Source: a virus
Strand: one strand, 5' to 3'
Virus record (IMG/VR): IMGVR_UViG_3300030103_003364
Coordinates: 1-43,514 of that record
DNA: 43,514 nt
In this document: positions 1-43,514 of the stretch, one piece after another
Numbering within the stretch: position 1 is the first letter of the stretch
Layout: every line of letters starts with the position of its first letter
Position numbers and translations under genes: made by a program
Notes under the pieces: model-generated
The model's database searches: none
What the model saw: the letters and a program-made list of their open reading frames with translations, nothing else
Told to the model about the DNA's origin: nothing

Positions 1-1
1 C

Positions 2-235
2 AGGCAGTATCCTTCCATGTTAGCAAGATGGAAAGGACATAAAGCAAGCTGGAAAGAGAAGATGGGTGGCGCTGATATAATCTATGTAAGGTATGATGAT
101 TTATCGCACCGTTTTGATAAGACACTTATGATAATATCTAAACGAATGGGTATCCCGATAATAGGTGGAATAGCAAGAAAGCCAGATAAAAGTAAAACTG
201 TCCAAGCAGGAGAGTTTAGCGAAAAGGAACTTTGA
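2..235 (+). CDS. Sulfotransferase, C-terminal part, cut by window edge
   Basis: The frame is open from base 2 to the TGA at 233-235 and matches the last 77 codons of the complete sulfotransferase at 40279-40911. Only the C-terminal third is present, so the PAPS-binding loop is missing because of the window edge, not because of a mutation. The protein stretch is almost identical to its partner until the last dozen residues, which differ (ending GEFSEKEL instead of GEFNEKEVT). The TGA overlaps the TTG start of the next gene by four bases, as in the other copy. Confidence 0.85.
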   Translation, partial: RQYPSMLARWKGHKASWKEKMGGADIIYVRYDDLSHRFDKTLMIISKRMGIPIIGGIARKPDKSKTVQAGEFSEKEL

Positions 236-1218
236 AAACAGCTTGTGTAGTAAGGTATGGAGCTTTTGGAGATGCGGTAATGGTGACACCAGTTCTCAGG
301 AAGTTAAAAGAGGATGGATACCATGTGACTATGAACATGACTCCAAGAGCAAAGAGTGTACTAAGAAACAATCCGTACATTGATAAATATTTAATACAGG
401 AAGATAATGAGATACCTAATGAAGAGCTTGGGGATTATTGGAAGAATTTATCTGAGAATTACGACAAGTTTATTAATTTATCTGGCTCTGTTGAAGGTGG
501 CTTACTTAAAGTTGAAGGAAAACCTGCTTTCCGTTGGGAGCATGAAGTAAGACATGAGAAATGCAATAAGAATTATTACGACGAACAGTTCCGAGTTGCT
601 GGATTCCCTGAAATTACAGGGAGAAATGGAGAACTCTTCTTTTCCTCACTTGAACATAAACTCGCCAAAGCATTTATTAAGAAATCAAGAAAGGCAAAAC
701 AATTTGTCGTTATGTGGTCGCTTGCAGGAAGTTCTTTCCATAAGAACTATCCATACACGCAGTTAGTTTGTGATTGGTTATTACGAGAATATAATGATAT
801 AGTTGTAATAACAGTTGGTGATGCTCTTAGCGTTATGTTAGAATGGGAGCATCCGAGAGTAAAATGCAGGTCTGATAAATGGTCTATTCGTCAGGCTATG
901 CTAATGACTAAATATGTAGACTTGGTGGTGGGAAGTGAAACAGGAATACTCAATGCGTCAGGGTGCTATGACACGCCAAAGATTGTCCTCTTGTCTCATT
1001 CGTCTGAGGAGAATCTCACGAAATACTGGAAGAACTGTACCAATTTACACGCAGGAGAGGACACACCTTGTTATCCGTGTCATCAGTTACATTATAGTCT
1101 TGAGTCTTGCCCTTTACACGACAAGCTAAAGACACCTTTATGTATGGCTAATCTTAAATTTGAGATAGTCAAGAACGAAATAGAACGACATTATAAGGAA
1201 TGGAAGAATGGATGTTAA
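232..1218 (+). CDS. Glycosyltransferase family 9 (heptosyltransferase-like), left allele
   Basis: The 328-residue protein has the GT9 layout. An N-terminal Rossmann start (RYGAFGDAVMVTPVLRKLK, about residues 8-26) resembles ADP-heptose:LPS heptosyltransferases. A C-terminal donor-site segment (DLVVGSETGILNASG, then a conserved region to SHSSEEN) follows. The family moves an activated sugar to a glycan acceptor in the cytoplasm; donor and acceptor here are unknown. A Cys-rich tail (PCYPCHQLHY, then further Cys residues) is unusual and could bind metal. The start is TTG, overlapping the sulfotransferase stop (TTGA), which suggests translational coupling. The paralogue at 40908-41897 is clearly homologous but diverged. 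Confidence 0.82.
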   Translation: MKTACVVRYGAFGDAVMVTPVLRKLKEDGYHVTMNMTPRAKSVLRNNPYIDKYLIQEDNEIPNEELGDYWKNLSENYDKFINLSGSVEGGLLKVEGKPAFRWEHEVRHEKCNKNYYDEQFRVAGFPEITGRNGELFFSSLEHKLAKAFIKKSRKAKQFVVMWSLAGSSFHKNYPYTQLVCDWLLREYNDIVVITVGDALSVMLEWEHPRVKCRSDKWSIRQAMLMTKYVDLVVGSETGILNASGCYDTPKIVLLSHSSEENLTKYWKNCTNLHAGEDTPCYPCHQLHYSLESCPLHDKLKTPLCMANLKFEIVKNEIERHYKEWKNGC

Positions 1219-1549
1219 AGTGAAAGATAATGGTACTCGTTCTCCTATGGGTATTTTATCAGTACAAACTGAAGAAACAGTTGCAAGACAAAAAGATAAA
1301 CCGTATAATGTGGGAGAATTTAATGATGGAGTAAAAGGAGATAGTGACGAATTAGAAGGTATGCCAACTCCAGATGAAGATAGGTTTGACGAAGGAGATT
1401 TTAACTTGGCTTTACGTTATCCTCATGCTATAAGAAGAATGTGGAGTGATGATGTAGCTATAGAAGTTATGGAAGCTCTACTACTTAATAAGCCTTTTGA
1501 ATTGCTAAAACAGAAACTACTACAGAAAGGAGAACAAGATGCTAGATAG
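1208..1549 (+). CDS. Conserved cassette protein A, unknown function (left allele)
   Basis: The 113-residue acidic protein is not recognised. Its ATG lies inside the last codons of the GT9 gene, and its end overlaps the next gene by 11 bases, so the genes are tightly coupled. Its homologue at 42246-42620 shares the middle motif GDSxELEGMPTPxE and a strongly conserved C-terminus (MWSDDVAIEVMEALLL, KPFELL, KGEQDAR). Conservation between diverged alleles argues that it is a real gene under selection. Its position just before a virion adaptor gene would fit a small structural or assembly role, but that is a guess. Confidence 0.7.
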   Translation: MDVKVKDNGTRSPMGILSVQTEETVARQKDKPYNVGEFNDGVKGDSDELEGMPTPDEDRFDEGDFNLALRYPHAIRRMWSDDVAIEVMEALLLNKPFELLKQKLLQKGEQDAR

Positions 1550-1730
1550 AATAGCAATAGGACTAAACATTATTCCTAATTCGCATCCTACGGATGAACA
1601 CCACAGGAAGATGGGTAACAAAAAGAGAATGGCAAGGTCAGAAGCAGACGATAGAATGAGGCAGAGAAGAAAGAAGCATGAAGATAAGAACTCCAGAATG
1701 GGGTCTGGTAATCACGGAATTGATAACTAA
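1539..1730 (+). CDS. Conserved cassette protein B, small basic protein (left allele)
   Basis: The 63-residue protein opens with DRIAIGLNIIPNSHP, shared with its homologue at 42610-42804, followed by a charged Arg/Lys-rich tail that is poorly conserved. A good ribosome site (AAAGGAG) lies inside the end of the preceding gene. The TAA overlaps the ATG of the next gene by one base. The fixed N-terminus and variable basic tail suggest a small binding or adaptor peptide. No family is recognised. Confidence 0.65.
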   Translation: MLDRIAIGLNIIPNSHPTDEHHRKMGNKKRMARSEADDRMRQRRKKHEDKNSRMGSGNHGIDN

Positions 1731-2245
1731 TGTATCATTTCCAAATACAAGAATATCGTAAAGGAAAAAAGGGGGAAGTAAGTATGGGCTATTGGGTCGG
1801 TATGACTACCAAGAGTGGTAGTGAAGCAAACTTCTATGTAGAAGATGATAACGGAACTAAGAGATACTACAATGGAAAAGATAAAAGGCATGAGTATAGG
1901 AATGAAGAACCATACGACCTAATAAAAGACCATACTAAATTAGTTAAAAAGATAGAGAAAGCTATAAAACCATTTGATGTAAAAGAAAATAAACCAGAAA
2001 TAGATTTAGAAGTAAAAACAGCAAATGCTGAAAGGTTTAAAGAACTCACAACTCCAGCAGGATTAAAAGCAAAGGAACTATTAGCTGGTGATGGATTAAA
2101 CCATGCTTCCTTTATTAGAGCATTAGGACAGGAAGTAAAACAAAGTACAAGGAAGAGTACAAAAGCACAGTATAATACTATACTAAATGAACTGACAGAA
2201 AATGATTTAATTAGAAAAGAAGGCTTGAATTATCTTTATAAGTAG
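1730..2245 (+). CDS. Conserved cassette protein C, unknown function (left allele)
   Basis: The 171-residue protein has two parts. The N-terminal 65 residues (GYWVGMTTKSG, NFYVEDD, YYNGKDK, EYRNEEPYD) are strongly conserved with the homologue at 42804-43328. The C-terminal part has a variable linker, then a helical region ending in GLNYLYK. That end resembles a small winged-helix-like fold, but this is only an impression. It is the last gene before the adaptor gene; the 36-base gap carries the ribosome site AGGAGA. Confidence 0.68.
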   Translation: MYHFQIQEYRKGKKGEVSMGYWVGMTTKSGSEANFYVEDDNGTKRYYNGKDKRHEYRNEEPYDLIKDHTKLVKKIEKAIKPFDVKENKPEIDLEVKTANAERFKELTTPAGLKAKELLAGDGLNHASFIRALGQEVKQSTRKSTKAQYNTILNELTENDLIRKEGLNYLYK

Positions 2246-2281
2246 TGTATATATTGTAATACAACAATAGGAGACGACATC

Positions 2282-3175
2282 ATGGCTGCTCCAACTGCAC
2301 CGACACTTACGATTATTACGACAGAAGGTATAAAGAAGGCTGGCTATGGTAACGCTGCATCTTCACTTTTAACTCGTTCACAAGACGAGTGGATAGAAGA
2401 GATAAAGAATGATATATGGACTTTATCTAAGAAGTTAAAATCCCTCTATGCTACTTCATTTGCTGTTACTACTAATGGAGTAGAGAAGTATTCCTACCCT
2501 ACAGATTTCTCCTCAGAAATGTCAATAACACTAATGACTGGAAGCGTTACTGGTACGGCTCAAGCAGGGGCGGCTACTACTATAACCCTTGCTGCTGCTA
2601 ATACCGCTTCTGATTTAATTGGCAAAGAAATAATGATTTTATCTGGTACTGGTTCTGCGCAGATAAACCAGATAACTGCCTTTGTAGCTTCCACTAATGT
2701 TGCAACCGTAAACGATACTTGGTCAACTAACCCTGACAGTACATCTGTTTATATGGTTGTTGATAAGTATAAAGACCTTCAGCAAACTCCTGTATGGCGA
2801 CATGACTCTGGAAGAACCTCACCAGAGAGAGGAGAACCTACACATTTCTTTCCTATCGGAGATTCCGATAATGGAGAATTTATTTTATTTCCTACACCTT
2901 TCCGTTCTGCGAGTGATACAAATGGGTACGGTATTCGTCATCAATATTATGCTGACCTTCTTCGTGTTGACCTGGCTTCTACTTTAATGACAACTTTATA
3001 TAGAAGGTGGAGGAGTCTCTTTATACAAGGTGTAAAGTATAAATGTTTAGAAGATTTAGATGACAATAGGCAGGGGCAGGAAGCTCAGAAGTATCGTGGG
3101 GATTTAAACGCTATGATTGTTCGTGAGGCTTATGGTGTGGATTTAAGTAATCTTAATATTTCGGTGGAGGGATAA
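2282..3175 (+). CDS. Putative head-tail adaptor/connector protein
   Basis: The 297-residue protein resembles adaptor-type proteins that podoviruses place between capsid and tail genes. It has a helical N-terminus (LTRSQDEWIEEIKNDIWTLS) and a beta-rich middle with a short inserted beta domain (residues about 80-160). Phrases such as PTHFFPIG and EFILFPTP, followed by YGIRHQYYADL, are typical of this group. Such proteins sit below the portal and join it to the tail tube. Its neighbours (nozzle-like protein, fibre) fit. The same gene restarts at 43370 and is cut by the window edge. The family call rests on sequence impression, not a search. Confidence 0.55.
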   Translation: MAAPTAPTLTIITTEGIKKAGYGNAASSLLTRSQDEWIEEIKNDIWTLSKKLKSLYATSFAVTTNGVEKYSYPTDFSSEMSITLMTGSVTGTAQAGAATTITLAAANTASDLIGKEIMILSGTGSAQINQITAFVASTNVATVNDTWSTNPDSTSVYMVVDKYKDLQQTPVWRHDSGRTSPERGEPTHFFPIGDSDNGEFILFPTPFRSASDTNGYGIRHQYYADLLRVDLASTLMTTLYRRWRSLFIQGVKYKCLEDLDDNRQGQEAQKYRGDLNAMIVREAYGVDLSNLNISVEG

Positions 3176-3702
3176 TGGCAAAAAAAAGAACAGCAACTCA
3201 GGAAGCTGAAGAAGAAGCAAAGAGAAAAAGACATGGTTGGAATAAAAAGAAGAAAAGAAAAGTATTGAACAAAGAAGAACTCCTGAAAGGTAAAGTTAAA
3301 AAGTTTGACCCAAGAGGTTCTGGTTATGACCAAAAAAACGCACCTCCAAGAAAACCAGCTAATCCTTCTGCTGGGAAGGAAGGAATCCCTCATCAGGATA
3401 CAAGAAATCCAAGAACAGGTCAAATTTTAAAAGGGCAAAAACATCCTACTTTTAGGTTAGGAATGGAGGGTGAAGAAGAGGCAGGTTACACAATCCATAG
3501 AGACGAATTAACTGGTAGGCTTTTTTCAAGAGCAAGAAGGAATCCCTCCGCAGCAGGGAATATGGTGTCCATAAAAGAACTCTTGGAGGAAAATGATAGA
3601 TATAGAAAAACTTTAGAGAGAAAGACAGCAACTCAGGAAGCTGAAGAAGAAGCAAAGAGAAAAAGACAAAAGACTGATTATAATAAAAAGAAGAAAAGGT
3701 AA
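3175..3702 (+). CDS. Lys/Arg-rich protein with duplicated ends
   Basis: The 175-residue protein is extremely basic. Both ends carry the segment ATQEAEEEAKRKR, encoded by a perfect 44-base direct repeat (3190-3233 and 3625-3668), and both are followed by KKKK runs. The C-terminus (TDYNKKKKR) matches a stretch of the large terminase (TDYNKKKMR) through a 24-base identical segment. The middle holds PRGSGYDQKNAPPRKPA and a region with GRLFSRARRNPSAAGN. The ATG overlaps the adaptor gene stop by one base. A DNA-binding virion or packaging-linked role is possible. No family is recognised. Confidence 0.6.
   Translation: MAKKRTATQEAEEEAKRKRHGWNKKKKRKVLNKEELLKGKVKKFDPRGSGYDQKNAPPRKPANPSAGKEGIPHQDTRNPRTGQILKGQKHPTFRLGMEGEEEAGYTIHRDELTGRLFSRARRNPSAAGNMVSIKELLEENDRYRKTLERKTATQEAEEEAKRKRQKTDYNKKKKR
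3190..3233 (+). repeat. 44-base direct repeat, copy 1 (copy 2 at 3625-3668)
   Basis: The same 44 bases occur at the start and end of the Lys-rich gene, in the same reading frame. The repeat is perfect, so it is either a recent duplication or kept identical by recombination. The flanks then diverge, although both continue into A-rich Lys codons. Confidence 0.9.
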
Positions 3703-3705
3703 ATA

Positions 3706-5331
3706 ATGGGATACTCAGGACAGACTATTGAGATTGATTTAAACGCAGGTGGGTTTAATTACAATCCTAACCTTGACTCTTTGCAGTTAGGAGCTATGAT
3801 TGATGGCTCTATTAATACAACTCTGCAAGATGGTGGGCGCAGGAAGCGTGGTGGTACTTCTCATGTAAACACTAGTGCCATTTCTGGTACACCTAAGTTA
3901 ATGAAGCTACATGATTTTATTCTGACTACTGGAACTCAGTTTCTTATGATGGCTGGTGCTGATGGAAAACTTTATAAGAATTTTACAGATACTTTAAAAA
4001 CAGGATTATCTACCACAAACTATTGGGATATGTCAAGCATGAATGACTTGCTTGTTACTACTGATGGTGCATCTGTATTACAGACATGGGATGGTGCTGC
4101 TGGTAGTACATCAGATGTGTCCACTCCTGCACCTGATTGGGCTACTGATTCTTTATATCCACAGCAGTTGGTTTTACATGGTAGAGGATTATCTCAAAGG
4201 ATGTGGTCTTGGACAACTAATAATAAAATCTTTGGTAGTAAAATATTTGATGCAGATGATTGGGGTGCAACTAATGGATTTATTTCAGACACTAATAACG
4301 TGTTTGCTACGAGAGAGGGAGGCAGTATTACTGGTATGTATGAGTTTGGTGATAGTTTGTTTATCACTACTGCTCGTAATACTTATATTCTACAAGACTC
4401 AAATTCTGACATTTCTACATGGGGTTTTACTTTAGCACAGTTTAATGCTGGTTCTGCTCATTGGAGAGTTATGGCACGGACTCCTAATGATATGTTGGTA
4501 ATGATGGATGATGGAGAAATTTATAGTCTTGTTACTGTAAATGCGAAAGGTGATTACAAAGCCTCAAGTATTACTAAACCAGCTTTTATAGATAGGTGGA
4601 TTAGAGATAATGTAGATTTAACACAGATAAGTAAGTTCCACATAAACTACGACCCTAAGATAAGGGCAGTATTGGTGTTTATGGTTAAGTCTGGTTCTAC
4701 TGTGGTTGATGTGTGCTTACCTTATTTTATAGATAGACCAGTTGACCAAGCGTGGGGTGCGCCTTTTGAGAATGAAGATTTTGATTGTGGATATAATGCT
4801 TCTGTTTCAGCTTTAGTTAAAGTTGCTGCTGGTGATTACAGATTAAGGACAGGTGCTAACACTACAGGGTTTGTTTGGGATTTAAACCAATCAACCTTTG
4901 CTGACAATAATGAAGCATACACGGGTAAGGTGTATTTACCAGAATCTGGATTTGGTGATAATGTAAGTATGAAGATGTTTAAGCGAATCATCTTCACAGG
5001 ATTTAATACAGCTATAAATGATGATGATGATTTAAGTCTTCAATGGACAACGGATGGGATAGCTAATACACCACAGTCTGTTAATTTTATAGCGTTGGCA
5101 TTAAAGGTTGATGACCCTGATGCTATCGTAGACCAAGCCATAGTAGGTTGTCCTAAAGGTAGTTTATATAACCTAGAGGCTATATTGCCTTTAGGACAAC
5201 CTGCTCGTAGGATAGGTATAAGATTTTCTAATAGTACAGAGGGTGATGACTTTTATGTAACTTCAGTTCAAGTAGATGTTAAACCTCTTGGGAGGAGACC
5301 GACACCAAGTAGAACATCAGTAGCTCAATAG
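3706..5331 (+). CDS. Tail nozzle/stabilisation-like structural protein
   Basis: The 541-residue, beta-rich protein begins with an early motif (GGRRKRGGTSHVN, about residues 43-55). This recalls podoviral proteins that close the tail tube, such as the P22 gp10 type, where a short N-terminal strand precedes a beta-propeller. Repeated strand-turn units with Trp and Asp (TNYWDMSSMNDLLVTTDG, QTWDGAAG) support a propeller-like fold. The gene lies three bases after the Lys-rich gene and nine bases before the fibre gene, in the tail block. The structural role is likely, but the exact equivalent is uncertain. Confidence 0.5.
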   Translation: MGYSGQTIEIDLNAGGFNYNPNLDSLQLGAMIDGSINTTLQDGGRRKRGGTSHVNTSAISGTPKLMKLHDFILTTGTQFLMMAGADGKLYKNFTDTLKTGLSTTNYWDMSSMNDLLVTTDGASVLQTWDGAAGSTSDVSTPAPDWATDSLYPQQLVLHGRGLSQRMWSWTTNNKIFGSKIFDADDWGATNGFISDTNNVFATREGGSITGMYEFGDSLFITTARNTYILQDSNSDISTWGFTLAQFNAGSAHWRVMARTPNDMLVMMDDGEIYSLVTVNAKGDYKASSITKPAFIDRWIRDNVDLTQISKFHINYDPKIRAVLVFMVKSGSTVVDVCLPYFIDRPVDQAWGAPFENEDFDCGYNASVSALVKVAAGDYRLRTGANTTGFVWDLNQSTFADNNEAYTGKVYLPESGFGDNVSMKMFKRIIFTGFNTAINDDDDLSLQWTTDGIANTPQSVNFIALALKVDDPDAIVDQAIVGCPKGSLYNLEAILPLGQPARRIGIRFSNSTEGDDFYVTSVQVDVKPLGRRPTPSRTSVAQ

Positions 5332-27990: not shown

Positions 27991-27992
27991 AT

Positions 27993-28017
27993 AAAAAAAG
28001 GGGGGATTTCTCCCCCC
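27993..28017 (-). terminator. Strong rho-independent terminator (leftward)
   Basis: Read leftward, a 7-bp GC-rich stem (28011-28017 with 28000-28006, four-base loop) is followed by seven T. It lies directly after the first early gene, so that gene can be made as a single-gene message and the rest may depend on readthrough or on the second motif at 27432. Confidence 0.85.
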
Positions 28018-28022
28018 AAGTG

Positions 28023-28304
28023 TTACCGTTTGATCGCATTCAGGTTGAATGTGATCCCCGACCCTAGGTCAATCCATTGACCTAAAGTGCTGGCTATATT
28101 CGTGTTACCTGAACGATTAGACGTAGGTCTCCCTTCAACCGTGAGGTCAATGGTGAGAATTGCCTTACCATTGCTTACCTGTACGTCTATGTTCTCGCAA
28201 GGTTTAACCTCACGAGCTTTCTTCGCCTTTGGTTTAGCTATAGCACCCTTCTGTGCCATAAACTGTGCAAAGGCTTCCATCATATCTATCTGGGCCTTAG
28301 TCAT
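28023..28304 (-). CDS. First leftward early gene, unknown
   Basis: The 93-residue protein has a basic linker (PKAKKAREVKP) and then a compact beta-type domain (KAILTIDLTVEGRPTSNRSG). Base composition is visibly more GC-rich than its neighbours. AAAGGAGGTGATTTT gives a very strong ribosome site and a terminator follows, so high early expression is likely. It is the gene closest to the candidate origin and could be a host-takeover or DNA-binding protein. No family is recognised. Confidence 0.6.
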   Translation of the reverse strand: MTKAQIDMMEAFAQFMAQKGAIAKPKAKKAREVKPCENIDVQVSNGKAILTIDLTVEGRPTSNRSGNTNIASTLGQWIDLGSGITFNLNAIKR

Positions 28305-28336
28305 AAAATCACCTCCTTTCTTTTTAAATTTCTAAC

Positions 28337-28358
28337 CTTTCCTGTGTATAATACGTCG
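28337..28358 (-). promoter_or_regulatory. Repeated upstream motif, copy 1 (possible early promoter)
   Basis: Read leftward, this holds CGACGTATTATACACAGG and then AAAG, 33 bases before the first early gene. TATTAT or TATAC could be a -10 box. The near-identical copy at 27432-27453 also precedes an early gene. A 10-base palindrome (CCTATATAGG, 28364-28373) just upstream may be an operator. Confidence 0.5.
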
Positions 28359-28439
28359 TGTTACCTATATAGGGGTAAGGGGTCGGGGGGATAATGCGTT
28401 ATATTTCTTTGGTGCATCCTGTCTCTAACTATTTTCTAA

Positions 28440-28720
28440 AAAGCGATTATGTTTACTAAACGACTATCATCTGTTTACTAATTCCAGCAGTTTTGTTTAC
28501 AAAAGTATTACAGATTTATTACAAGAATATTACGAGAGTATTACAAAATATTACAAATATTACAAAGCAGTTTTCAATGTTTTCAACAAGTTAGCATTTT
28601 GCTGTTTTAAAAAACTATGCTATATATATATAGATTAATATATATACTATATTATATATTATATTAATAGAAGAGTCTATTACAAAGTATTACAACTTAT
28701 TACAATTCATTACAGAATAA
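28440..28720. other. Candidate replication origin with iteron arrays
   Basis: Array 1 has six TATTACA units (one TATTACG) starting at 28506, 28517, 28528, 28539, 28549 and 28558. Array 2 has four (the last CATTACA) at 28678, 28688, 28698 and 28708. All point the same way and are spaced 9-11 bases, about one helical turn. Between them lies a strongly AT-rich core of TATATA-type runs (28610-28670). Upstream, GTTTAC recurs exactly every 22 bases (28451, 28473, 28495). Such a layout fits an origin bound by an initiator, or a large regulator array in the divergent control region. Confidence 0.6.
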
Positions 28721-28829
28721 AAGTTTTAATTAGGGTATCCCCTTATTTTCACTTTTTTGTATGTACAGTTTTCTTGAACAATTAGGTTTATTAAATATAA
28801 TAATATTTATAATATTTATTAGTTTTTAC

Positions 28830-28857
28830 TTGACATCTTTTACTCAAATGCTATATT
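28830..28857 (+). promoter_or_regulatory. Sigma70-like rightward promoter
   Basis: TTGACA at 28830-28835 is followed after 16 bases by TATATT at 28852-28857. Transcription would begin near 28864, just at the 5' edge of the structured leader, and run into the rightward genes. This is the clearest promoter in the window. Confidence 0.65.
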
Positions 28858-28863
28858 GTAGTT

Positions 28864-28980
28864 ATCGGAGGCTAATTCCGTTAAACAGTCGCAGGTAGTT
28901 GGTGGGTGTACCGAAAGGTGCTAAAGGTTCTCTTTGGAGAGTAGGACTTGTAGATTCTTCGCATCCACCAGCTACCACTT
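28864..28980 (+). ncRNA. Structured leader RNA, unknown class
   Basis: A 15-bp stem joins 28894-28908 to 28962-28976 with only two G-U pairs. Inside it are a short hairpin closed by a GAAA tetraloop (28909-28920) and a second hairpin (about 28924-28949, TCTC/GAGA plus an outer AAG/CTT). Before it lies a 5-bp hairpin (28866-28870 with 28876-28880). The result is a multi-branched RNA at the start of the predicted rightward transcript, ending eight bases before the ribosome site. It could be a riboswitch-like leader, an RNA thermosensor, or a packaging-related RNA. I do not recognise the class. Confidence 0.6.
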
Positions 28981-28995
28981 TAAAGGAGTGCAGCT

Positions 28996-29526
28996 ATGAC
29001 AGAAGACAAAGCGCTTAAAAAGAAAGGAGGTGTAATAAACCAGAGGCACAGAATTAAGAAGAAGTACGACATAAACGAGGATGGGAAGATATATTACAAG
29101 AAGAACATACCTATAGAACTTCTTATAGAATACTTTGAGAAGGAGCTTACTTATGAAGACATAGGTAGAATACTTGGATGTACTTCTCAGAACGTAGCAA
29201 TGCGATTGCAGAAGGAAGGGTATTTCGTCAAGCGCAACAATGCTTTTAAGAAACATGAGATAAAGGTGCTTGAGAATATTAAAAGAAGATTTGCTGAAGA
29301 ACTGCAAACTAAGAACCTTGATAAATCATCAGCCCTTCAGATAGCTACTGCGTATGCTGTTATCTTTGACAAGATACGGTTGCTTGAAGGAAAGTCTACG
29401 GAGAACATTGATGAGGTTCACAGGATAGAACAGTTAAATGATACCAAAAAAACTTTACTTGAATTGTTAAAAGGTGTTGAAGATGCTAAAAAACTTAAAC
29501 CAAAGGAGGAAACAGATGGAGATTAA
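28996..29526 (+). CDS. HTH protein, possible small terminase subunit
   Basis: The 176-residue protein has an early helix-turn-helix (LTYEDIGRILGCTSQNVAMRLQKEG, about 51-75) and a helical C-terminal half with SALQIATAYAVIFDKIRLLEG. This pattern resembles phage DNA-recognition subunits of terminase, but also transcription regulators. It is the first gene behind the structured leader. The large terminase lies 4.5 kb downstream on the same strand. The ribosome site is AAAGGAG, seven bases before ATG. Confidence 0.45.
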   Translation: MTEDKALKKKGGVINQRHRIKKKYDINEDGKIYYKKNIPIELLIEYFEKELTYEDIGRILGCTSQNVAMRLQKEGYFVKRNNAFKKHEIKVLENIKRRFAEELQTKNLDKSSALQIATAYAVIFDKIRLLEGKSTENIDEVHRIEQLNDTKKTLLELLKGVEDAKKLKPKEETDGD

Positions 29527-32841: not shown

Positions 32842-32863
32842 AAAGGATATGAGATGGTGAAGA

Positions 32864-32959
32864 ATGTTCCTTCGTAATGTGATTTTATTATATGTCTTGG
32901 TTCTTTTATCTTTTGTAATTTTATTTATAATTGGTCTAGGGATAATTAAATGGCTATAA
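32864..32959 (+). CDS. 31-residue membrane peptide
   Basis: The peptide is a single hydrophobic helix (VILLYVLVLLSFVILFIIGL) with a short charged N-terminus. It directly follows the endolysin-type gene. The ribosome site is weak. It may belong to the lysis set as a small holin-like or regulator peptide. Confidence 0.4.
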   Translation: MFLRNVILLYVLVLLSFVILFIIGLGIIKWL

Positions 32960-37755: not shown

Positions 37756-37855
37756 CATAATTATGCAAGTAGGTAAAAATCACTTTTAATCGGTCATCTG
37801 AACCGTATTCAGATATAACAAGCGAGAGTCTTGTAAAACTACTAAAGGAGGCTTT

Positions 37856-40278: not shown

Positions 40279-40911
40279 ATGAAACTTGTAATTGTAAATT
40301 CACATGAGCGTAGTGGTACTCATTTCTTAATGAATACGATTGCTCTCAACTTTGGATATTGTAGCTTTCCTTATTACAATATGGATATGCCTGTACTGCC
40401 GCACATACCTAATAATATGTTAGCGGTGCTACAACAGATACAAGAACCAAGACATATAATAAAATCACATTATGAAGGAACATTCTTCAGACCAATTATA
40501 AATAAAATTACAAAACACGCTCATGTGTTTTACATCTACAGAGAAGAAGAAGGTGTATTTAAAAGTTGTCTGAAGCATTGGAATAGTCTAACCTGGGAAG
40601 AAGCTGCCAGATGTGAAACTGTTGATGAGCTTAAAGTAGCACAACCTTATGGTGGTTGTATGCGTTATCAGTTCAGGCAGTATCCTTCCATGTTAGCAAG
40701 ATGGCAAGGACATAAAGCAAGCTGGAAAGAGAAGATGGGTGGCGCTGATATAATCTATGTAAGGTATGATGATTTATCGCACCGTTTTGATAAGACACTT
40801 ATGATAATATCTAAACGAATGGGTATTCCGATAATAGGTGGTATTGCTCGTAAACCAGATAAGAGTAAGACAGTACGGGATGGAGAATTTAATGAAAAAG
40901 AGGTCACTTGA
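40279..40911 (+). CDS. Sulfotransferase family protein (complete copy)
   Basis: The 210-residue protein opens with NSHERSGTHFLMNTI, the 5'-phosphosulfate-binding loop (about 7-21). HIIKSHYEGT (about 59-68) follows, then YIYREEEGVFKSCLKHW (about 85-101), which fits the 3'-phosphate-binding helix with Arg and Ser. The family moves sulfate from PAPS to a hydroxyl of a sugar, lipid or protein; the acceptor here is unknown. It overlaps the GT9 gene by four bases. No strong ribosome site is seen. The C-terminal third is matched by the cut copy at 2-235. Confidence 0.82.
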   Translation: MKLVIVNSHERSGTHFLMNTIALNFGYCSFPYYNMDMPVLPHIPNNMLAVLQQIQEPRHIIKSHYEGTFFRPIINKITKHAHVFYIYREEEGVFKSCLKHWNSLTWEEAARCETVDELKVAQPYGGCMRYQFRQYPSMLARWQGHKASWKEKMGGADIIYVRYDDLSHRFDKTLMIISKRMGIPIIGGIARKPDKSKTVRDGEFNEKEVT

Positions 40912-41897
40912 AAAAGCCGAAAGCCTTATTGATACGGTACGGAGCATTTGGGGATACGATTATGCTTACTCCTTTATTACGGAAATTGAAGGAGGAGGGA
41001 TACCATGTGACAATGAACATGACTCCGAGAGCAAAAGCTGTATTGAACCACAATCCTCACATAGACCAATACATAATGCAAAAGGAGAATCAGATACCTA
41101 ATGAACAACTTGGGAGTTACTGGAAGAATCTGTCTGAAGGTTACGATAAAGTTATTAATCTGTCTGGTTCAGTTGAAGGTGGTTTGCTTAAAGTTGAAGG
41201 AAAACCTGCTTTTCGTTGGGAGCATGAAGTAAGACATGAGAAATGCAATAGGAACTATTATGACGAGCAATTCAAAAAAGCAGGATATGATACAACAGGC
41301 AAGGTGGGAGAACTTTTTTTTACACGACTTGAGCATCAACTTGCTAAGACATACATTAAGAAATATAGAAAAAGATTTACGGTCATGTGGTCACTTGCAG
41401 GAAGCTCGTTCCACAAAAACTATCCCTATACACAAATAGTTTGTGATTGGTTATGCAAACTTTATGATGATATAGTATTTATTTTAGTTGGTGATGCTGT
41501 TAGTGTTATGTTAGAATGGGAGCATCCACAGGTAAAATGCAGGTCAGATAAATGGTCAATTCGTCAGGCTATGTTGATGACAAAATATGTTGATTTAGTA
41601 GTTGGCTCAGAGACAGGGATATTAAATGCGGCAGGGTGCTATGACACGCCAAAGATTGTCCTCTTGTCTCATTCGTCTGAGGAGAATCTCACGAAATACT
41701 GGAAGAACTGTACCAACTTACACGCATCTCAGGATGAAGTACCCTGTTATCCTTGTCATCAGTTGCACTATACTTTGGAGTCTTGCCCTTTACATGAGAA
41801 ATTAAAGACACCTTTATGTATGACACAACTTAAATATGAAGTTGTTAAGAACGAAATAGAACGACAATATAAGGAATGGAAAAATGGGTGTAGGTGA
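40908..41897 (+). CDS. Glycosyltransferase family 9 (heptosyltransferase-like), right allele
   Basis: The 329-residue protein has the same GT9 layout as its left-end partner: RYGAFGDTIMLTPLLRKLK near the N-terminus and DLVVGSETGILNAAG in the donor-binding half. The TTG start overlaps the sulfotransferase stop. An 85-base stretch (41632-41716) is identical to 959-1043 although flanking parts differ, suggesting recombination or selection at this segment. The C-terminal Cys set (PCYPCHQLHY and later Cys) is fully conserved between alleles. Confidence 0.82.
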   Translation: MKKPKALLIRYGAFGDTIMLTPLLRKLKEEGYHVTMNMTPRAKAVLNHNPHIDQYIMQKENQIPNEQLGSYWKNLSEGYDKVINLSGSVEGGLLKVEGKPAFRWEHEVRHEKCNRNYYDEQFKKAGYDTTGKVGELFFTRLEHQLAKTYIKKYRKRFTVMWSLAGSSFHKNYPYTQIVCDWLCKLYDDIVFILVGDAVSVMLEWEHPQVKCRSDKWSIRQAMLMTKYVDLVVGSETGILNAAGCYDTPKIVLLSHSSEENLTKYWKNCTNLHASQDEVPCYPCHQLHYTLESCPLHEKLKTPLCMTQLKYEVVKNEIERQYKEWKNGCR

Positions 41898-41985
41898 CGC
41901 AGAGGTATGGTTAAAAGATGACACGAATACTCCTTTTGGAGTGGAGCGTGATGGCAATAGGATTGTAGTTAAAGATGACTACTGA
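41884..41985 (+). CDS. 33-residue ORF, possible partial copy of cassette protein A
   Basis: The ATG lies inside the end of GT9, exactly where cassette protein A starts in the left copy. Its residues (KDDTNTPFGVERDG) recall the N-terminus of protein A (KDNGTRSPMGILSV). A full protein A gene follows at 42246, so this may be a leftover N-terminus split off when the extra gene entered. Confidence 0.35.
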   Translation: MGVGDAEVWLKDDTNTPFGVERDGNRIVVKDDY

Positions 41986-42268
41986 ATGGAAATGTATTAA
42001 GTGTGGTCAATGTTGTATTGGCGCTAATGTTACTGTAAACTTGGAAGCAGAAGCAGCAAGGTTCTATAGTTACTTTGGTATAGAGATAAGTAAAGTAAAT
42101 GATGAGTATAAAGGCAAATTTCAAACAGGAACAGTTTGTAAGTTCTGTAGGAATAAGATGTGCGAAATATATGAGAACAGACCACAGATATGTAAAGACT
42201 ACCCTATAGTAGAGAAGGATGGGAAGAAACAATGTTGGGGGGTAAATGATGGCACATATAGAAAGTGA
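41975..42268 (+). CDS. YkgJ-type cysteine-cluster protein
   Basis: The 97-residue protein matches the CxxCxxxCC family: CIKCGQCC near the N-terminus, CKFCRNKMCEIYENRP and ICKDYP later, with a final Cys. These proteins are predicted to bind zinc or an iron-sulfur cluster; some relatives modify proteins. It is present only in the right copy of the locus, between GT9 and protein A, overlapping both neighbours. Its partner role could be to activate or modify the cassette product, but this is inference. Confidence 0.75.
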   Translation: MTTEWKCIKCGQCCIGANVTVNLEAEAARFYSYFGIEISKVNDEYKGKFQTGTVCKFCRNKMCEIYENRPQICKDYPIVEKDGKKQCWGVNDGTYRK

Positions 42269-42620
42269 TAGTAGAGTAGAAAGTGGAATGGATTTTAAAG
42301 TTGATGGAGGTGAGATAACTCCATTGGGAATGATGTCTGTTCAGGCTGAAGCGATTATGAAGCGCAAGCAAGATAAGCCTCACTCAGTAGGTGTTTTTAC
42401 TGATGGCGCTAAAGGAGATAGTGGTGAGTTAGAAGGTATGCCAACTCCAGAAGAGTTTACTGAGTCTGATTTTAATGTTGCATTAAGATTCCCTTCTGCT
42501 ATAAGAACTATGTGGAGTGATGACGTAGCCATAGAAGTTATGGAGGCGCTGTTATTACATAAACCTTTTGAATTGCTAAACCAGAAACTACAACGGAAAG
42601 GAGAACAAGATGCCAGATAG
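42246..42620 (+). CDS. Conserved cassette protein A, unknown function (right allele)
   Basis: The 124-residue homologue of 1208-1549 has an extra N-terminal stretch (MAHIESDSRVESG) before the shared part. The middle and C-terminal motifs are the same as in the left copy. A G-rich site (GGGGGG) lies just before ATGATG. It overlaps the YkgJ-type gene and the next gene. Confidence 0.68.
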   Translation: MMAHIESDSRVESGMDFKVDGGEITPLGMMSVQAEAIMKRKQDKPHSVGVFTDGAKGDSGELEGMPTPEEFTESDFNVALRFPSAIRTMWSDDVAIEVMEALLLHKPFELLNQKLQRKGEQDAR

Positions 42621-42804
42621 AATAGCAATAGGACTGAATATTATACCAAATTCTCACCCTTCAGATGAACACCACGACAAGGTGAGAAAAGCAAAAAGGA
42701 AGAGAGATGCCGATAAAAGAGAGAGGATGCAGTTTGCAAGAAAGGGTAGAAACGGAGAAGATAAAATGAGAGACACACGGAACACTCCGATAGCACAAGG
42801 CTAA
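42610..42804 (+). CDS. Conserved cassette protein B (right allele)
   Basis: The 64-residue homologue of 1539-1730 is identical over DRIAIGLNIIPNSHP, then has a diverged basic tail (KAKRKRDADKRERMQFARKG). The gene has an AAAGGAG site and overlaps its neighbours in the same way as the left copy. Confidence 0.63.
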   Translation: MPDRIAIGLNIIPNSHPSDEHHDKVRKAKRKRDADKRERMQFARKGRNGEDKMRDTRNTPIAQG

Positions 42805-43328
42805 TGTTTCACTACCAGTTTTCATATTATAAACGGAACAATAGAGGAGAGATAAGTATGGGGTATTGGGTCGGCTTTACTGCCAAGAATGGCAAAGAAT
42901 GTAATTTCTATGTAGAAGATGATAGAGGAAAACGAAGATTCTATAATGGGAAAGACAAAAAAAATGAGTATAGAAGCGAAGAGCCATACGACACCTTAGA
43001 AGATAATACTCCAAAAGTTATAGAACGAAAAATAATACCAGATGCTTCAGAGCCAATACAAAGCACACATAACAGACCAGTATTAGAGCAGGAAGTAAAA
43101 GAAGCAAATGCTGAAAGATTTGTTGCATTAAAAACAGATTTAGGGCAGCAAGCAAAAGCATTATTGTCTGAGGGTAGGTTAAATCATACCACCTTTACAA
43201 AACTAATATCTAACAAAGCATCTTTAACTGACAAGAAACTTAGTAAGCCAAAGTATGATGCTATCATAAAGGAGTTAATAGATAACGAAATAGCAGAGAA
43301 AAAAGGCTTGAATTATATTTATAAATAG
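42804..43328 (+). CDS. Conserved cassette protein C (right allele)
   Basis: The 174-residue homologue of 1730-2245 shares a conserved first third (MGYWVGFTAKNG, NFYVEDD, FYNGKDKK, EYRSEEPYD), has a variable linker, and a similar helical end (KKGLNYIYK). Stronger conservation of the N-terminal third suggests that this part makes the key contact. Confidence 0.67.
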   Translation: MFHYQFSYYKRNNRGEISMGYWVGFTAKNGKECNFYVEDDRGKRRFYNGKDKKNEYRSEEPYDTLEDNTPKVIERKIIPDASEPIQSTHNRPVLEQEVKEANAERFVALKTDLGQQAKALLSEGRLNHTTFTKLISNKASLTDKKLSKPKYDAIIKELIDNEIAEKKGLNYIYK

Positions 43329-43369
43329 TGTATGTAGTAACTTAATATACAACATCAGGAGACGACAAC

Positions 43370-43514
43370 ATGGCTGCTCCAACAGCTCCGACACTTGCGA
43401 TTATTACAACTGAAGGTATAAAGAAGGCTGGCTACGGTAACGCTGCATCTTCACTTTTAACTCGTTCACAAGACGAGTGGATAGAAGAGATAAAGAATGA
43501 TATATGGACTTTAT
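43370..43514 (+). CDS. Head-tail adaptor-like protein, N-terminal part, cut by window edge
   Basis: The first 48 codons match those of the gene at 2282-3175, with only a few silent or near-silent changes and complete identity over the last 79 bases. The window ends inside the gene, so it is a cut copy, not a broken gene. GGAGACGACAAC precedes the ATG, as in the other copy. Confidence 0.75.
   Translation, partial: MAAPTAPTLAIITTEGIKKAGYGNAASSLLTRSQDEWIEEIKNDIWTL

Follow-up and report, generated by a model that had tools for sequence, protein, structure and literature searches.

The window analysed here is the whole 43,514-nt virus record IMGVR_UViG_3300030103_003364 (positions 1-43,514). It comes from an uncultured tailed phage and has genes for an SU10-type portal, a phage major capsid protein and a large terminase that matches phrog_2. 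A non-coding stretch separates its leftward genes, ending at about 28304, from its rightward genes, starting at 28996, and contains, in order, a series of TATTACA repeats, a promoter-like site and a structured element of 83 nt (28894-28976). The features of the region are as follows.

28497-28714, + strand: TATTACA repeats at 10-11-bp spacing around an AT-rich stretch, origin-like; context, outside the RNA
28830-28857, + strand: promoter-like site TTGACA-16-TATATT (11/12 in a consensus scan, TG before the second hexamer), predicted start at about 28864
28866-28880, + strand: small 5' leader hairpin CGGAG/UUCCG in the minimum free energy (MFE) fold, resembling the AUCGG-N9-CCGU start of the late leader at 37789
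28894-28909, + strand: 5' strand of stem P1, GGUAGUUGGUGGGUGU, the most conserved part, near-identical in copies L004B, L007B and G009
28910-28919, + strand: hairpin P2, ACC-GAAA-GGU, matched by a small hairpin in the corresponding position of L004B (GGGGAAACCCC) and L007A (GUGCUUCGGCAC)
28925-28949, + strand: hairpin P3 with the conserved GGAGAGUAGG, from the fold, with both-side stem changes between copies
28961-28976, + strand: 3' strand of P1, GCAUCCACCAGCUACC, pairing with 28894-28909
28984-28988, + strand: Shine-Dalgarno sequence AGGAG, 7 nt past the end of P1
28996-29526, + strand: first downstream gene, for a helix-turn-helix (HTH) and coiled-coil protein with a weak Sigma70_r4_2 match, small-terminase candidate

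The promoter-like site is the best-scoring one in the region by consensus scan. The first-pass annotation had placed the beginning of the structured RNA right at the predicted transcription start, but P1 begins about 30 nt downstream of it; from the end of P1 to the ATG at 28996 there are 19 nt. The suggestion that the HTH gene encodes a small terminase fits the position of its homologues, which sit upstream of TerL in L015, L067 and L068, and on this ground the gene may be a small terminase; confirmation by fold was not obtained, as the low-confidence predicted model was too poor for a fold match and gave no structural match. Origin-like arrays of 10-11-bp-spaced repeats also occur at L004:192-358 and L063:5606-5650, with sequences differing from those of the window, and the L004 array includes TTATCCACA DnaA-box-like units.

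Fold of the element in the window

P1 comprises 16 bp (13 Watson-Crick and 3 G-U) with zero mismatches; the stem had been recognized correctly by the first-pass annotation but counted as 15 bp with two G-U pairs. It is practically fully formed in the computed ensemble. For the 83-nt element the fold energy is -39.2 kcal/mol, where shuffled sequences average -21.5 (z = -6.0) and 0 of 200 do as well; for the full leader (28864-28980) z is -4.6. Uninterrupted helices with a loop of 20-130 nt, 16 bp or longer and containing no fewer than 8 G-C pairs, were sought across the whole window. Two turned up, P1 and one at 5142-5205, against none in 60 Markov-shuffled windows, in which AT-rich helices of 16 bp were nevertheless frequent (44 in 60). 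Both the absence of comparable helices from the shuffles and the z of the element bear out the earlier claim that such pairing is very unlikely by chance. The other helix, at 5142-5205, is a 22-bp hairpin, perfect with G-U pairs, inside the coding sequence 3706-5331.

The GAAA hairpin P2, proposed earlier as well, has counterparts in L004 and L007A but does not belong to the MFE fold of the window copy. The junction fold that forms it reaches -37.9 versus -39.2 kcal/mol for the MFE, and its pair probability is 0.03 for the window copy alone. Because L004 and L007A both carry a stable small hairpin at the equivalent spot, P2 is supported despite its non-MFE status; we consider it possible in the window copy and favoured by comparison with L004B and L007A.

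Related copies and conservation as RNA

Related contigs were gathered by a terminase search, and copies of the element were then sought by blastn and by pattern scans, which covered 2.9 million viral contigs and led to the copies in L004, L007 and G009, the 43.5-kb record of L063/L094. A search through the whole records of 15 relatives, several of which are short fragments, turned up copies in three. The confident copies number five, all from a single virus lineage: that of the window, one in L004, two in tandem in L007 and one in G009/L094.

L004, 797-877, minus strand: copy L004B, from blastn and pattern scans and the covariance model
L007, 160-231 and 233-318: tandem copies, from blastn and pattern scans and the covariance model

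A covariance model (R1) gave 58-92 bits for the copies in the window and in the contigs of two related viruses, which are the four copies on which it was trained. The G009 copy is an independent hit (19.1 bits, E 0.0016 within the 43.5-kb record; 12.8 bits without filters). A further sequence, L004A (968-1068), which directly follows the L004 promoter-like site, is at best a degenerate copy at 11.6 bits. Judged from scores and folds, the remaining pattern-scan hits in viral contigs are probably chance matches; the top ones reach 26.4 bits (L044, L046, L056), that of L044 lying inside a DNA-polymerase-like coding sequence. A scan of bacterial genomes gave five hits, none convincing by the covariance model. 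A blastn search with the leader, run on phage, plasmid and E. coli genomes with mimicry of rRNA or other sequences in mind, returned only chance matches of 20-29 nt.

The first-pass annotation had described a multi-branched RNA of no known class, to be compared with known RNA families. The relatives show compensating changes, and Rfam 15 gave no match at gathering score in the window, in agreement with that description; permissive scans (E up to 10) returned only chance-level hits, the best at the element being mir-H1 (E 0.22, 20.2 bits versus a gathering score of 97). On the minus strand at 27992-28084, outside the element, PrrB/RsmZ matches below threshold (24.9 bits against a gathering score of 44, E 0.017), probably by chance. 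The element represents a new family of structured RNA, though of a well-known type, the phage leader or intercistronic RNA, and no copy was found outside the lineage in the collections scanned.

The P1 sequence (UUGGUGGGUGU with CAUCCACCAGCU) is near-identical in the window, L004B, L007B and G009, while the interiors differ greatly; its length in the other copies is 10-16 bp. The P3 motif is GGAGAGUAGG in the window and L004B and AGAGAGUAGG in L007A, and L007B and G009 show at most a loose resemblance by eye (UGAGAUAG, UGAAAUAG). In the four-copy alignment, both sides have changed in 7 of 29 pairs and the inner hairpins show compensatory changes. Paired cells amount to 86.6%, falling to 45-47% when the partner is slid by one column; as the alignment has four sequences and the structure was derived from these, the statistics are support, not proof.

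The asymmetry of the G-U pairs between the strands is the stronger argument for RNA. Across the five copies, P1 contains 11 non-Watson-Crick pairs, all of them G-U in the mRNA sense and none A-C, together with two single bulges and no mismatch (counted with the better of two bulge placements for G009 and over 10 core pairs for L007A). A DNA palindrome would be expected to drift equally toward A-C and G-T. Since the exceptions are only G-U in the sense strand and the inner changes are compensatory, we are dealing with a structured RNA and not with a DNA palindrome. It is accordingly very improbable that the locus is a DNA element such as an operator, an origin hairpin or a small mobile element with terminal inverted repeats, even though its ends are inverted repeats, its placement varies among genomes and origin-like repeats lie near the window and L004 copies: besides the one-sided G-U pairs and the covarying inner hairpins, its orientation follows the downstream gene, and no origin-like repeats are found near the G009 or L007 copies. 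The pairing is a genuine, conserved folded-RNA element.

Genomic setting and possible function

The window copy forms the leader of the HTH gene. The tandem copies of L007 start where the upstream gene has its stop codon and are followed by a 64-aa gene, and the G009 copy separates a 133-aa from an 81-aa gene, after which comes a dATP/dGTP diphosphohydrolase-like gene; no promoter-like site was found adjoining the G009 copy. The L004 copy follows a promoter-like site, and no open reading frame is present on that strand for about 800 nt downstream. Constant across the copies are the mRNA sense, the non-coding gap and, where a gene follows, a distance of 7-9 nt from P1 to the Shine-Dalgarno sequence (9 nt in L007, 7 nt in G009). 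G009 has its HTH homologue (41% identical) on the opposite strand, at a distance of 574 nt; neither this gene nor G009's rightward leader, beside its own origin-like repeat array, has the element. The element is thus linked neither to the HTH gene nor to an operon switch. Because its copies precede unrelated small genes, and because the HTH homologue and the rightward leader of G009 lack it, a gene-specific switch is disfavoured, and the earlier proposal that it controls the operon switch is not supported for an RNA with copies inside the operons of L007 and G009.

Ligand sensing, which had likewise been proposed, is not supported either. A multi-branched, aptamer-like fold adjoins the ribosome-binding site, and the tandem units before a gene in L007 recall the glycine-type riboswitches, which are tandem aptamers. 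The latter differ in that the present element has a very stable P1, no expression platform, unrelated downstream genes and no Rfam match. No terminator was found in the stretch scanned (28300-29050), and no conserved alternative fold sequestering the Shine-Dalgarno sequence was found; a sequestering pairing, CACUUU-AAA-GGAGUG, can be drawn by eye for the window, but no comparable one for L007 or G009. With a 16-bp P1 essentially fully formed in the ensemble, inner loops that vary widely among copies and downstream genes without a common function, a ligand-sensing riboswitch or thermosensor seems very unlikely. The very stable P1 means that a constitutive scaffold or processing stem fits better than a switch, which corrects the tempting view of this leader as a gene-specific riboswitch.

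A role as an RNA part in packaging was a third early proposal. The element has about the size of the phi29-type packaging RNA (pRNA) and shares its three-way junction, and the window copy precedes the possible small-terminase gene. An RNA of that type would occupy a single conserved locus in a phage with a phi29-type packaging ATPase, whereas the loci found here differ and the phage has different packaging machinery, encoding a large terminase that matches phrog_2 as well as a candidate small terminase. Given also the two copies in L007, the absence of any at the matching place in G009 and the lack of an Rfam match, a packaging-motor RNA is scarcely credible.

We tentatively prefer the reading that the element is a modular, very stable cis-acting mRNA element that would be recognized or processed by RNase III or by an RNA-binding protein. 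To the structure, the conservation as RNA, the strand, the placement and the copy number established here, this reading adds transcription, protein recognition, processing and an effect on expression, each of which we infer. The element would be transcribed as part of the phage mRNA, in leaders and intercistronic gaps, where P1, enclosing a tetraloop-type P2 and a P3 with GGAGAGUAGG, would form a rigid module just before the ribosome-binding site. It might then be recognized by a nuclease specific for double strands (RNase III), or by an RNA-binding protein of phage or host, the transcript would be cut or protected at the element, and the downstream cistron could be expressed separately from the upstream part. 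RNase III is the simplest candidate partner: the element offers the long, nearly perfect double-stranded stem that marks its sites, in a transcript predicted from the promoter-like site. The R sites of phage T7 are RNase III processing stems of phage mRNAs, and they resemble the element as stable long stems in leader or intercistronic positions just before ribosome-binding sites; unlike them, it has a strongly conserved P1 sequence and encloses two hairpins. That conservation exceeds what RNase III requires, and the L004 copy, with no open reading frame downstream, does not suit a purely cis role in translation. The five confident copies moreover come from one lineage, and four of them trained the model whose pairs were counted.

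Second to cis processing or stability, and the main rival, stands a put-like processive antiterminator, in which the folded nascent leader would bind RNA polymerase and make it read through terminators farther along the phage operons; put RNA acts on the polymerase directly, suppressing its pausing and termination. The put RNAs of phage HK022 are about 70 nt long with two stem-loops, located just downstream of early promoters or about 270 nt after them, and putL and putR are related leader RNAs (PMC9378689). The present element is likewise a phage-encoded structured leader RNA near early promoters, with related copies recurring within a single genome and no evident protein partner; the window and L004 copies directly follow a strong promoter-like site, and a conserved sequence in a stable fold would suit polymerase binding. 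Its architecture nevertheless sets it apart from put, in which two consecutive stem-loops (~70 nt) stand without an enclosing helix, whereas here a helix of 16 bp encloses the rest. As some copies lie inside operons (G009 and L007), that of G009 with no adjacent promoter-like site, and as the scanned stretch has no terminator just downstream, we regard a put-like antiterminator as unlikely. Somewhat less likely still is a new antitermination or polymerase-modifying RNA that acts without protein, is structurally unrelated to put and serves this uncultured phage lineage as a portable unit in its leaders and operons.

A small RNA acting in trans, either cut out of the leader or transcribed from a promoter of its own, would suit L004, where the promoter-like site precedes a degenerate copy and a full one and no open reading frame follows; the GGA of the P3 loop is also reminiscent of sites bound by CsrA-type proteins. 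It remains improbable, as no terminator follows the element and a Shine-Dalgarno sequence comes immediately after it in three of the four genomes.

Antitermination, RNase processing and RNA-based packaging all came to light through phage leader RNAs. A lineage-specific element whose closing helix is kept while its interior, its neighbours and its copy number change lends itself to study as a candidate portable part for RNA-based control.

Other observations in the window and its relatives

The late (capsid) leader of the window (37789-37845) also occurs in L005, L007, L009, L010 and L063. Near its predicted transcription start it has a conserved possible pseudoknot, in which CGG:CCG and YCUGA:UCAGR interleave, and a hairpin, CAAG..CUUG. 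Six relatives preserve every one of these pairs, though variation occurs at one pair only. The early leader at 28864 also begins with AUCGG-N9-CCGU, as the late leader does, and CGG-N8-10-CCGT is found on the + strand of the window in these two leaders only. L005 (6711-6778) and L070 (G003, G008) carry a different 16-bp enclosed RNA structure with four G-U pairs between the late promoter and the conserved leader, absent there in other relatives; membership of this late-leader insert (L005/G008) in the present family is not supported, as it reaches only 6.3 bits with the element's model.

A coding segment of about 78 bp recurs in the window as an inverted copy 7.5 kb off (32858-32937 and 40430-40515), an insert present in L011 and missing in L004. 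The ends of the window (1-3200 and 40674-43514) are roughly 70-95% similar copies of the same genes, and joins in L012, L003 and L006 suggest a circular genome of about 40-41 kb, the two window ends coming from two strains.
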